Virus record (IMG/VR): IMGVR_UViG_3300043449_000492
Coordinates: 1 to 64,000 of that record
DNA from: a virus
Reading direction: 5' to 3' (one strand)
DNA length: 64,000 bases
Position numbers and translations under genes: made by a program. The notes below the pieces were generated by a model, which saw only the letters and a list, made by a program, of their open reading frames with translations, made no database searches and was not told the DNA's origin. Below are positions 13,667 to 17,019 of this stretch, in pieces; within the stretch, counting starts at the first letter, position 1, and every line of letters begins with the position of its first letter.

Positions 13667-14338
13667 ATGAAAACATTTAAGCATTTAAACAGTGATCCTA
13701 TTCTATGTAAACTTGATAGAGAAGAAATCAACGGTAAGCGTTATTATATCTCTCCCCAGGGAAAACGCTTACCGTCTGTCACCACATTCTTAGGTCATTT
13801 CAAGAAAGAATCCATAATGGCTTGGAGAAAGAAAGTTGGCGAGGAAGAAGCCAATCGTATCTCCGGCCAGGCTGCGAGAAGAGGAACTAAGTTTCACTCA
13901 CTCATGGAATCGTATCTAGGCAATGAGCAGAACTTCCTTACCGAAGATATCATGCCTGACATGAAACAAGCCTTTCATGACATGGTTCCCACCCTTGACA
14001 GAATCGACAATATACATTATATTGAGACTATGCTTTACAGCGAGATTTTAGGTCTCGCAGGACAAGTTGATTGCATTGCGGAATTTGATGGTGTTCCTTC
14101 TATCATTGATTTTAAGACTTCCAATAAGCTTAAGAGAGAAGACTGGATCACAAATTACTTTGAGCAATGCACTTGTTATTCCCTAATGTATGAGGAAATG
14201 ACAGGCATCAAGGCAAAGCAAATCGTCGTGCTTATCTCCGTTGACGGAGAAATGCAACCCCAAGTTTTCGTCAAAAATCGTAAGGACTATGTTCCTGGTT
14301 TAGCCGAAAAGATTAAAGAGTTTAGGAGCATAATATGA
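13667..14338 (+). CDS. PD-(D/E)XK (RecB/Cas4-type) exonuclease
   Basis: 223 residues. A PSVTTFLG motif near the N-terminus, A-x-R-G-T-x-x-H (AARRGTKFHSLME) and the core G-x-V-D (LAGQVDCIAEFDG) ... IIDFKTS ... Y..QCTCYSLMYEE match the RecB-like nuclease fold; the D of QVD, the D/K of DFK and the Q/Y of the C-terminal helix are the expected active-site residues. Such genes occur in T4-like cyanophages and may process DNA ends. The promoter abuts the start codon, and the end overlaps the lipoprotein gene (ATGA). Confidence 0.85.
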   Translation: MKTFKHLNSDPILCKLDREEINGKRYYISPQGKRLPSVTTFLGHFKKESIMAWRKKVGEEEANRISGQAARRGTKFHSLMESYLGNEQNFLTEDIMPDMKQAFHDMVPTLDRIDNIHYIETMLYSEILGLAGQVDCIAEFDGVPSIIDFKTSNKLKREDWITNYFEQCTCYSLMYEEMTGIKAKQIVVLISVDGEMQPQVFVKNRKDYVPGLAEKIKEFRSII

Positions 14339-14688: not shown

Positions 14689-14969
14689 AACGATTGATTT
14701 TGATATTGTGCTTGATTAGCACATCATCATGGGCGTCGGAAGACATAACATGTCAGAAGAATCTCAACCATGCATTTGTTGTAACATGTGAAGCAAAGAA
14801 GGTGATGAATGTTTCGTTGGTTAACATTGATGGCGGCGAGTGTGCTGCTCCTGCATTTCACTGGCACGGTACAGGTAAATTCGACGTTCCTGGAACACAA
14901 CAATGTTTCTATGTCAGATCAGTAACATTGAACATTGACGGACACAAGAAAGCATTTGGACCTCTTTAA
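14685..14969 (+). CDS. Small exported Cys-containing protein
   Basis: 94 residues with a typical Sec signal peptide (KRLILILCLISTSSWASE; cleavage probably after WA-S). The mature part is about 76 residues, beta-rich, with four Cys (C-x12-C, then C and C) that could form two disulphides in the periplasm. Small secreted proteins of this kind occur in phage clusters next to lipoproteins and may modify the infected cell envelope; this is inference. Confidence 0.65.
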   Translation: MKRLILILCLISTSSWASEDITCQKNLNHAFVVTCEAKKVMNVSLVNIDGGECAAPAFHWHGTGKFDVPGTQQCFYVRSVTLNIDGHKKAFGPL

Positions 14970-15097
14970 TGTCAAAACTTTTATGTAAAATCTTTGGACA
15001 TAAGTTCTATAGGATTAATCCTCTTTTGAAGAATAGTCCTATTAGTCATTGGTTGCGTTGTAAAAGATGCGATCATGTAGATACATTTTATAAATAG
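14969..15097 (+). CDS. Small zinc-ribbon-like protein (DUF1660-like)
   Basis: 42 residues from the ATG in TAATG. LLCKIFGHKF near the N-terminus and RCKRCDH near the C-terminus give Cys/His pairs as in the short prophage proteins that I recall as DUF1660 (LCxxxGHxW ... CxxC). Function unknown. Its last codons contain the TATAAATA box at 15089. Confidence 0.65.
   Translation: MSKLLCKIFGHKFYRINPLLKNSPISHWLRCKRCDHVDTFYK
15089..15096 (+). promoter_or_regulatory. Candidate late promoter TATAAATA upstream of tmRNA
   Basis: Exact T4 late consensus TATAAATA overlapping the stop of the preceding gene. With the usual spacing, transcription would start around 15101-15103, at the beginning of the acceptor piece of the tmRNA. 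Confidence 0.6.
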
Positions 15098-15404
15098 AAT
15101 TGCCGAAGGTCGTTGAGAGACGAAGCATAGGATTCTTGGACGTGGGGGCAGTACCCACCGTCTCCACCATGGATACACTGGTTGAGTTTAGGCCGTTGGT
15201 TATCTCGTAAAACTCTGCCAACGGATGAGAAGTTTCCAGTGTATCTTTGATGGGGACGAAATAGGTTCGACAGGATTCAGTAAGGTCGTAAGGAGACCAA
15301 AGGCGATAAGCAAATGCAGCAAATGATAATGCTCCATTTGAAGGATATGCTCTAGCAGCGTAACCTCATTGGGCTGGTGACTTGCCTAGAAACAGAAAAG
15401 TCAC
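15098..15404 (+). ncRNA. ssrA: Circularly permuted two-piece tmRNA (alphaproteobacterial type)
   Basis: The acceptor piece comes first, ending T-stem GTGGG/CCCAC (15142-15158), CGTCTCC, A and CCA at 15167-15169. The coding piece starts at GGGGACG (15252-15258), which pairs over 7 bp with CGTCTCC (15159-15165), including the G3:U wobble used by alanyl-tRNA synthetase. GGTTCGACAGGATT is the conserved tmRNA 5' signature; CAGGATTC (15271) can form P2 with GATTCTTG (15131). The tag frame ends GCA AAT GAT AAT ... GCG TAA (15319-15363), peptide ANDNAPFEGYALAA, typical of alphaproteobacterial tags. The spacer 15170-15251 is closed by GATACACTGG/CCAGTGTATC with an inner CCGTTGG/CCAACGG stem. Hairpin 15377-15404 ends the coding piece. 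Role: rescue of stalled ribosomes. Confidence 0.93.
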
Positions 15405-15431
15405 ACTCACACAAACACACAGGAATTTATC

Positions 15432-15674: not shown

Positions 15675-16592
15675 ATGACCAAGGCCTTCATTTGTGCAGC
15701 TACAGTAAACAAGTCTGGTGCAGCATTAGACGATGACGAGATTGCATTTCTCAAAGAGACGATGCCATGTGGTGTCATTCTATTCAAGCAAAATTGTAAG
15801 TCTAAAGAACAAGTGAAGGCCTTGGTCGAGAGTGTTAAATCTATTCTCGGACCCAATGCTCTCATTCTTGTTGACCAAGAAGGCGGCAAGATTCAACGTC
15901 TCAAGCCTCCAGTCTGGAAGGCACACCCCGCAGCTAATTCCTTTGTAAAAGAAATACTTCAACAGTCTAATAGATATCCAATGGTCGAATCATCAGCGTA
16001 TGACATGGGAGTTGAACTTGCGGAACTCGGAATTAATGTCGATTGTTTTCCTGTGCTTGATGTTCCTGTGTCTGGGGCTTCTCTCATCATTGGTAGTCGT
16101 GCCTATTCCGACAACCCTGATGAAGTAGCGACACTTGGACGTTGGGCTGCAGTCGGTATGAAAAGGTCAGGCGTTCATCCTGTAATCAAGCATATACCAG
16201 GTCATGGTCGTGCTACGGTTGACTCACATCATGCTCTTCCAATTGTTGATACAGATATTGAAACACTAAAAGAAACAGACTTTGTTCCTTTTGTCTTTAA
16301 TAATGATTGGAAGTTTGGAATGGTGGCTCATGTGGTATATTCCGCTATCGATCCAAAAGAGCCTGCTTCCCAATCTCGTAAGGTTGTCCAGGAAATCATT
16401 CGTGATTATATTGGATTCAAAGGTATTCTAATGACCGATGATCTTACAATGGAAGCACTCAGCGGTTCCTTTGCAGAAAGAGCCAAGAAAGCCATTGACA
16501 GCGGGATCGATATTGTGCTAATATGCAACGATACATTGGAAGACGCTAGACAAGTCGCTTCCGTAGTCCCGGAATTATCCGTCAAGCTATAA
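15675..16592 (+). CDS. nagZ: Beta-N-acetylhexosaminidase, GH3 family (NagZ-like)
   Basis: 305 residues, slightly shorter than E. coli NagZ (341). Family motifs in order: GVILF (33-37), VDQEGGKIQR (66-75), the substrate-binding KHIPGHG (172-178), the general acid/base dyad D183-S-H185, AHVVYSAIDP and the nucleophile region MTDD (Asp255/256), then ICND. No signal peptide, so cytoplasmic. NagZ removes GlcNAc from anhydro-muropeptides in cell-wall recycling. RBS AAAGGA. Phage-encoded NagZ is unusual. It may exploit recycled wall material, alter muropeptide signalling, or have been recruited to another sugar. It follows the tmRNA and precedes a small membrane protein. Confidence 0.9.
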   Translation: MTKAFICAATVNKSGAALDDDEIAFLKETMPCGVILFKQNCKSKEQVKALVESVKSILGPNALILVDQEGGKIQRLKPPVWKAHPAANSFVKEILQQSNRYPMVESSAYDMGVELAELGINVDCFPVLDVPVSGASLIIGSRAYSDNPDEVATLGRWAAVGMKRSGVHPVIKHIPGHGRATVDSHHALPIVDTDIETLKETDFVPFVFNNDWKFGMVAHVVYSAIDPKEPASQSRKVVQEIIRDYIGFKGILMTDDLTMEALSGSFAERAKKAIDSGIDIVLICNDTLEDARQVASVVPELSVKL

Positions 16593-16603: not shown

Positions 16604-16798
16604 ATGAGCAATAAAGACAAATATACAGGCATGAGAGATTTTGATTTTGCTCTAAGCAATAATGTTTATATCTGTGCAGTAGCTGGTGCAGTTCTCGGTG
16701 CTATTCTCGGTTACTGGGCAACAGGTGCAATCGAGATTACAATTGCTTCGGCAATTACATTCTTTGTTCTCTCGGGTATCTTTGGAATGTTCGTATGA
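16604..16798 (+). CDS. Small membrane protein with two helices
   Basis: 64 residues; AAGGAAAA upstream. A polar N-terminus of about 20 residues is followed by two hydrophobic helices separated by an A-I-E turn (VYICAVAGAVLGAILGYW, then TIASAITFFVLSGIFGMF). The topology would fit a holin-like pore, but there is no family match. Overlaps gene 33 (ATGA). Confidence 0.6.
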   Translation: MSNKDKYTGMRDFDFALSNNVYICAVAGAVLGAILGYWATGAIEITIASAITFFVLSGIFGMFV

Positions 16799-17019
16799 GC
16801 CCCGATGATATCCAAAAGTTTAGTTTAGAGATTGAGGAAATTGTCTATATGAAAGACATACCTTATATCGATGCGGTCATTATGTATTGTGAGCAGTCGA
16901 ACTTTGAAGTAGAAACAGCAGCTAAACTTATCTCAGGCGTCCTCAAATCCAAGATTCAGTTAGAAGCTGAAGAACTACACTTTATCAAGAAAGCAACTAC
17001 CTCCCAACTCCCCATCTAA
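16795..17019 (+). CDS. 33: Late-transcription co-activator gp33
   Basis: 74 residues. In T4, gp33 bridges the beta flap of host RNA polymerase and the sliding clamp to switch on late promoters. The helical core YIDAVIMYCEQSN-x-E-V-E-T-A-AKLIS...LKSKIQLEAEELHFI and terminal LPI correspond to the short gp33 proteins of T4-like cyanophages (recall); T4 gp33 itself is longer (112). Its presence fits the TAAATA-type late boxes ahead of the tail genes. Confidence 0.8.
   Translation: MSPDDIQKFSLEIEEIVYMKDIPYIDAVIMYCEQSNFEVETAAKLISGVLKSKIQLEAEELHFIKKATTSQLPI

Follow-up and report, generated by a model that had tools for sequence, protein, structure and literature searches.

The Permuted tmRNA Locus

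The window, by which is meant the whole stretch of 64,000 nucleotides analysed here, covers the beginning of a virus record of 169,069 bases with the gene content of a T4-like marine myophage, including gp32, gp59, gp33, PhoH, T4 RNase H, and homologues of T4 baseplate proteins. At positions 15098–15404 of the plus strand it is confirmed to carry a complete alpha-type, circularly permuted two-piece tmRNA gene, the only tmRNA copy in the record. On the same strand, a PD-(D/E)XK exonuclease is encoded upstream (13667–14338; PHROG 298, E 1e-73) and a gp33-like late-transcription coactivator downstream (16795–17019; Pfam Trans_coact, E 3e-20). Just 3′ of the tmRNA gene lies a gene (15675–16592, plus strand) for a GH3 enzyme of the NagZ type (NCBIfam beta-N-acetylhexosaminidase equivalog, 235 bits), for which a 57% relative was found in two IMG/VR contigs only, together with nine distant matches in phage records. 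Elsewhere in the record, ~122 kb from the tmRNA, a single cluster of 23 tRNA genes covers most amino acids (L126, 13368–18792; record positions ~137368–142792).

The initial annotation, made from the letters alone, had proposed a complete alphaproteobacterial-type permuted tmRNA and suggested a check with Infernal and the Rfam models. Two models and ARAGORN concur in this identification. In cmscan searches, RF04321 (tmRNA_permuted) matched 15108–15363 with 93.8 bits (cut-off 47; E 7e-17) and RF01849 (alpha_tmRNA) matched 15071–15407 with 79.8 bits (cut-off 50; E 5e-20), both above the curated cut-off over the full model length, although the base pairs of RF04321 cover the tRNA-like domain only (PMC11915505). 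ARAGORN called a permuted tmRNA (tmRNA*) with the tag AANDNAPFEGYALAA*. The gene order of acceptor piece, spacer, and coding piece is the alphaproteobacterial arrangement, and the locus shares with the Caulobacter-type two-piece tmRNA of RF01849 the permuted order, the G3:U70 pair, the GGCRGTA family of T-loops, the GGNTCGAC signature, and the ANDN start of the tag. In the RF01849-type tmRNAs of hosts, by contrast, the spacer is mostly short, and the acceptor piece is longer and carries one more hairpin at its 5′ end.

Anatomy of the Two Pieces

The anatomy that had been read from the sequence, with the CCA piece first, a 7-bp stem containing G3:U, the signature, and a 10-bp spacer stem, is present as described. 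The acceptor piece (15102–15169, plus strand), placed from the cmscan alignments with a predicted 5′ end, comprises the 5′ half of the inter-piece helices, the T-arm, the acceptor 3′ strand, and CCA. Its helix GGUC at 15108–15111 pairs with GACC in the coding piece and is retained in six phages in an RNAalifold alignment. The T-arm (GTGGG-GGCAGTA-CCCAC, 15142–15158) had been flagged as an oddity on account of its loop; GGCAGTA turns out to be normal for the class, as it agrees with the RF01849 consensus and occurs in 53 of 114 phage tmRNAs among the matches listed and in 7 of 101 host tmRNAs, most hosts having GGCGGTA. The acceptor 3′ strand CGTCTCC (15159–15165), followed by the discriminator A and CCA (15166–15169), forms seven pairs with GGGGACG at 15252–15258, including G3:U70, a pair found in all 114 phage copies among the matches listed. 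The predicted tRNA-like domain is shown by these features to be intact, with alanine identity. A hairpin of the host 5′ acceptor piece (GTGCCGG...CCGGCTATGGCGATAA; host loci L138–L255) is absent at 15097–15140, and the phage acceptor piece appears shorter.

The coding piece (15252–15404, plus strand), delimited by cmscan and covariation, begins with GGGGACG and continues with the GGTTCGACAGG signature, the tag frame, and a 3′ hairpin (GTGACTT/AAGTCAC, 15377–15383/15398–15404). When the window was aligned with five relatives (L260, L262, L263, L265, and L082), RNAalifold returned 67 consensus pairs, 27 of them with compensatory double changes, which fall in the inter-piece helices, in the stems of the T-arm, acceptor, and spacer, and in the 3′ hairpin. 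The whole gene folds with a z-score of −5.2. No intrinsic terminator was seen 3′ of the gene, and 3′-end processing of the tmRNA is therefore assumed. In cells, the RNA would be expected to run as two processed pieces.

Between the two pieces lies a hairpin spacer (15170–15251, plus strand; −31.1 kcal/mol, z −4.7) for which excision is expected. It is closed by a 10-bp stem of exact complements, GATACACTGG at 15172–15181 and CCAGTGTATC at 15236–15245. Stems of at least 8 bp were found in 86 of 88 phage spacers among the matches listed versus 39 of 264 shuffled sequences. Spacers of at least 55 nt occur in 88 of 114 phage loci among the matches listed (L003–L122) versus 13 of 101 host loci (L138–L255). 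L263 (4410–4525) and L260 (1610–1732), both close relatives, have a further hairpin immediately upstream of the late promoter box discussed below, and its ends (in L260, CGCCTTCATCA ... TGATGAAGGCG) resemble the tmRNA's own boundary between acceptor stem and spacer, so that it looks as if a spacer region had been duplicated or a mobile hairpin inserted.

The tag frame, AANDNAPFEGYALAA plus TAA, spans 15316–15363 on the plus strand, with the stop at 15361–15363. The initial annotation was right in assigning the phage its own tag with an ALAA end, but its count of 14 residues missed one GCA. In an alignment with L260, L262, L263, and L265, the resume codon lies 10–11 nt past AAAGGC, a spacing that places the window's resume codon at GCA 15316–15318 and gives 15 encoded residues; the encoded tag is thus most likely AANDNAPFEGYALAA, one alanine longer than first read. 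Tags end in ALAA in 61 of 84 phage copies among the matches listed versus 19 of 115 host tags. The suggestion that the tag might redirect proteins to a different protease balance finds no footing here, as the ALAA end appears to be an ordinary ClpXP-type end and nothing points to a special protease.

A Putative T4-Type Late Promoter Upstream of the tmRNA

The octamer TATAAATA, at 15089–15096 on the plus strand, has the sequence of a T4-type late promoter box and stops a few bases 5′ of the acceptor piece. Two copies are present in the window, against 4.6 expected. Of the 111 phage tmRNA genes scored among the matches listed (window included), 81 have the exact octamer between 76 and 59 nt ahead of CCACCA, where chance, from the contigs' own frequency, would yield ~0.003 per region. 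The same position holds the octamer in 0 of 133 host genes (0/100 and 0/33 further), a comparison in which the hosts are mostly of GC-rich lineages and the AT-rich genomes form a small set of nine, all within the further 33. The difference (Fisher p 9e-40) is descriptive and carries no correction for relatedness, the phage loci being mutually related so that the counts overstate independence. An artefact of AT-rich hosts was rejected as the source of this contrast, since 0 of the 9 AT-rich hosts carry the octamer. In four relatives with PhoH proteins 86–93% identical, the tmRNA and the position of ATAAATA are kept and the sequence farther upstream has diverged.

Across the phage genome, 19 of 30 N-ATAAATA sites lie no more than 80 nt upstream of gene starts, against 5.3% expected, and the motif precedes the homologues of gp23 capsid, gp18, gp19, gp21, and gp4, thus marking capsid, sheath, tube, and protease genes. 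Homologues of the late-transcription factors gp55, gp33, and gp45 are encoded by the phage. Sequence and consensus together identify the TATAAATA box as the putative late promoter of this phage. The T4 late promoter box spans −13 to −6, and if this geometry is valid here, transcription is predicted to start at ~15102, six bases before the first acceptor-piece helix. The arrangement matches the T4-type late promoter in its octamer and in the presence of the three homologous proteins, but it serves a tmRNA and, in most relatives, is fused with a sigma70 promoter.

On this basis we infer late expression of the window tmRNA. By promoter criteria, its copy of TATAAATA would be late-only because a good −35 is missing (best 4 of 6), the stretch concerned coding instead for a 42-residue protein. 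This ORF (14969–15097, plus strand) is DUF1660-like with a CxxC motif, and its TAG stop overlaps the late box. Read-through from upstream genes could provide an alternative supply of the RNA. Late expression is not universal, since 12 phage loci among the matches listed, including L082, have a sigma70-type promoter without a late box.

Putative Composite Promoters in Related Phages

The main alternative to a late promoter is that the tmRNA is expressed early or constantly, as proposed for the Methylophilales phage Melnitz (MZ577097), TATAAATA being merely the AT-rich −10 of a sigma70 promoter. The Melnitz gene is the closest described counterpart: it too is an alpha-type two-piece tmRNA located upstream of gp33 and gp59 and downstream of PhoH and a PDDEXK nuclease, and it has TATAAATA ~70 nt before CCACCA (PMC9004378). 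The window differs in having a shorter spacer and another tag, and it has neither the full TTGACA-17 sigma70 part nor the glutamine riboswitch found behind the Melnitz gene; a search of the window with Rfam cmscan returned no glutamine riboswitch at the gathering cut-off. The early reading draws strength from the TTGACA at 17 nt in most relatives and from the term used for the Melnitz promoter by its authors, who describe it as early (PMC9004378). It is nevertheless unlikely, since what is conserved is the exact octamer and not TATAAT, the octamer occupies this place in none of the 133 host genes, the host promoters having a CTATATT-like −10, the capsid genes are preceded by an identical box, and the window copy stands without a good −35. 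Moreover, where the sigma70 −10 is offset from the box, as in L262, L092, L113, and L119, ATAAATA still follows downstream (e.g., TATAATAAATA).

Scoring required TTGACA with 5 or 6 of 6 matches, a spacer of 16–18, and a −10 with at least 3 of 6; of 110 phage tmRNA genes among the matches listed, 76 combine a late box with a sigma70 promoter by this measure. In 53 of these 76 composites the same bases serve as late box and −10, and in the remainder the −10 is placed 3–11 nt upstream of the late box. The composite form is associated with the tmRNA: among the matches listed, 56 of the 69 distinct TATAAATA sites at tmRNA genes show it, compared with 20 of the 115 found elsewhere in the same contigs. 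A second set, gathered once the composite criteria were fixed, had TTGACA-17-TATAAATA in 11 of 11 IMG/VR contigs (at most 6 distinct sequences) and in the isolate Melnitz. Among the close relatives, L260, L263, and L265 are late-only by the same criteria, L262 is composite, and L082 is sigma70-only. Tandem TATAAT-like boxes (TATAATATGGTATAATATAAATA) are seen at the offset position upstream of the tmRNA in L100 and L106.

By its sequence, TTGACA-17-TATAAATA, the Melnitz promoter reads as both early and late. For the permuted tmRNA class of T4-like marine phages, a single composite promoter of ~40 bp, in which a host sigma70 promoter is fused with a phage late promoter, probably provides a supply of rescue RNA from early to late infection, with some lineages, this phage included, late-only and others sigma70-only. 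No statement of this composite reading was found in the literature searched, in which one detailed report describes the promoter as early.

Distribution, Gene Slot, and Origin

Permuted ssrA genes in phages are more common than the initial annotation had supposed. Two-piece tmRNAs of phages have already been published with the OM43 phage Melnitz; of the 133 unique tmRNA structures from phages tallied there, 53 are two-piece, and 50 of these are marine or aquatic (PMC9004378). A 23-base alpha-type pattern was found here in at least 120 IMG/VR contigs, and both tmRNA pieces could be placed in 114 sequences, window included, among the matches listed. The new point is regulatory, namely the late box or composite promoter at phage tmRNA genes.

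Most of the main virion and replication proteins of the phage are ~30–60% identical to those of Melnitz, single-gene comparisons place cyanomyophages and marine single-virus genomes closest among the isolates (~45–48%), and several virion proteins have few or no relatives among phage records. At the nucleotide level, 20 kb of the window gave no match by megablast, a blastn search of phage records with the tmRNA gave no match at 1e-5 and, at E 10, four Melnitz records plus two weak matches at chance level, and a more stringent exact pattern aimed at close relatives likewise matched nothing. Close relatives were recovered with the upstream exonuclease protein as query; L260, L262, L263, and L265 carry a tmRNA in the same place, and the tmRNA of L082 is in part 78–83% identical to that of the window.

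A search of the phage record found no SmpB, although the record may be incomplete; the expected partner would then be the SmpB of the host. This observation, together with the tmRNA-like inhibitors known in phages (cited in PMC11915505), would also suit an RNA that acts as a decoy or inhibitor by titrating the SmpB or AlaRS of the host, comparable to the tag-less tmRNA-like RNA of mycobacteriophage DS6A. Such a role is very improbable given that resume context, tag frame, stop, and degron end are all intact in the window tmRNA and that 80 of 84 phage copies among the matches listed preserve an LAA, VAA, or IAA end, for which a decoy would have no need.

With neighbours scored by similarity to the window's proteins, an exonuclease or PhoH lies upstream on the same strand in 41 of the 85 loci with upstream room, and gp33, gp59, or gp32 lies downstream in 54 of the 77 with downstream room; 35 loci, which are fragments or too distant, have none of the tested neighbours (all counts among the matches listed). 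Taken singly, the exonuclease is upstream of the tmRNA in at least 47 phage loci and gp33 downstream in at least 62. The slot PhoH/exonuclease–tmRNA–gp33–gp59–gp32 is typical of T4-like marine phages and is conserved even where gp33 is just 32–60% identical to that of the window, and its fixed position across many T4-like phages indicates that the tmRNA is an old resident gene. That it might be a passive relic of integration beside, or capture from, a host ssrA gene, a common integration site (PMC9004378, PMC11915505), scarcely merits belief in view of this conserved slot with its divergent gp33, the compensatory changes, and the gene's own type of promoter.

Proposed Function in Late Infection

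The locus probably represents a complete, working alphaproteobacterial-type two-piece tmRNA, long resident in these phages and placed behind a phage late promoter, that would supply ribosome rescue late in infection. Under this model, the late RNA polymerase, consisting of host core with gp55, gp33, and gp45, would start at ~15102, and the spacer would be removed from the transcript by RNase P and 3′ trimming enzymes of the host. The pieces would remain paired, the acceptor piece would be charged by host AlaRS, and host SmpB would bring the charged tmRNA to ribosomes stalled on broken mRNA. The nascent chain would there receive A-AANDNAPFEGYALAA, a host ClpXP-type protease would degrade the product, and the ribosome would be released.

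The late box would sustain the supply of tmRNA once host transcription stops and late phage mRNA dominates, and in most relatives the sigma70 promoter on the same element would provide early as well as late supply. A late supply would fit the need for ribosome rescue after host transcription ceases. The earlier idea that the tmRNA keeps ribosomes recycling during host shut-off is consistent with this picture, and the putative late promoter box, which had gone unnoticed, lends it specific support.

With Melnitz already isolated and growing on OM43 strain H5P1, the reason why lytic phages carry tmRNA genes becomes testable. The conservation of a late, or early-plus-late, promoter over divergent phages points to use of the tmRNA during the translation of late phage mRNA, which would favour ribosome recycling over the early destruction of host proteins.
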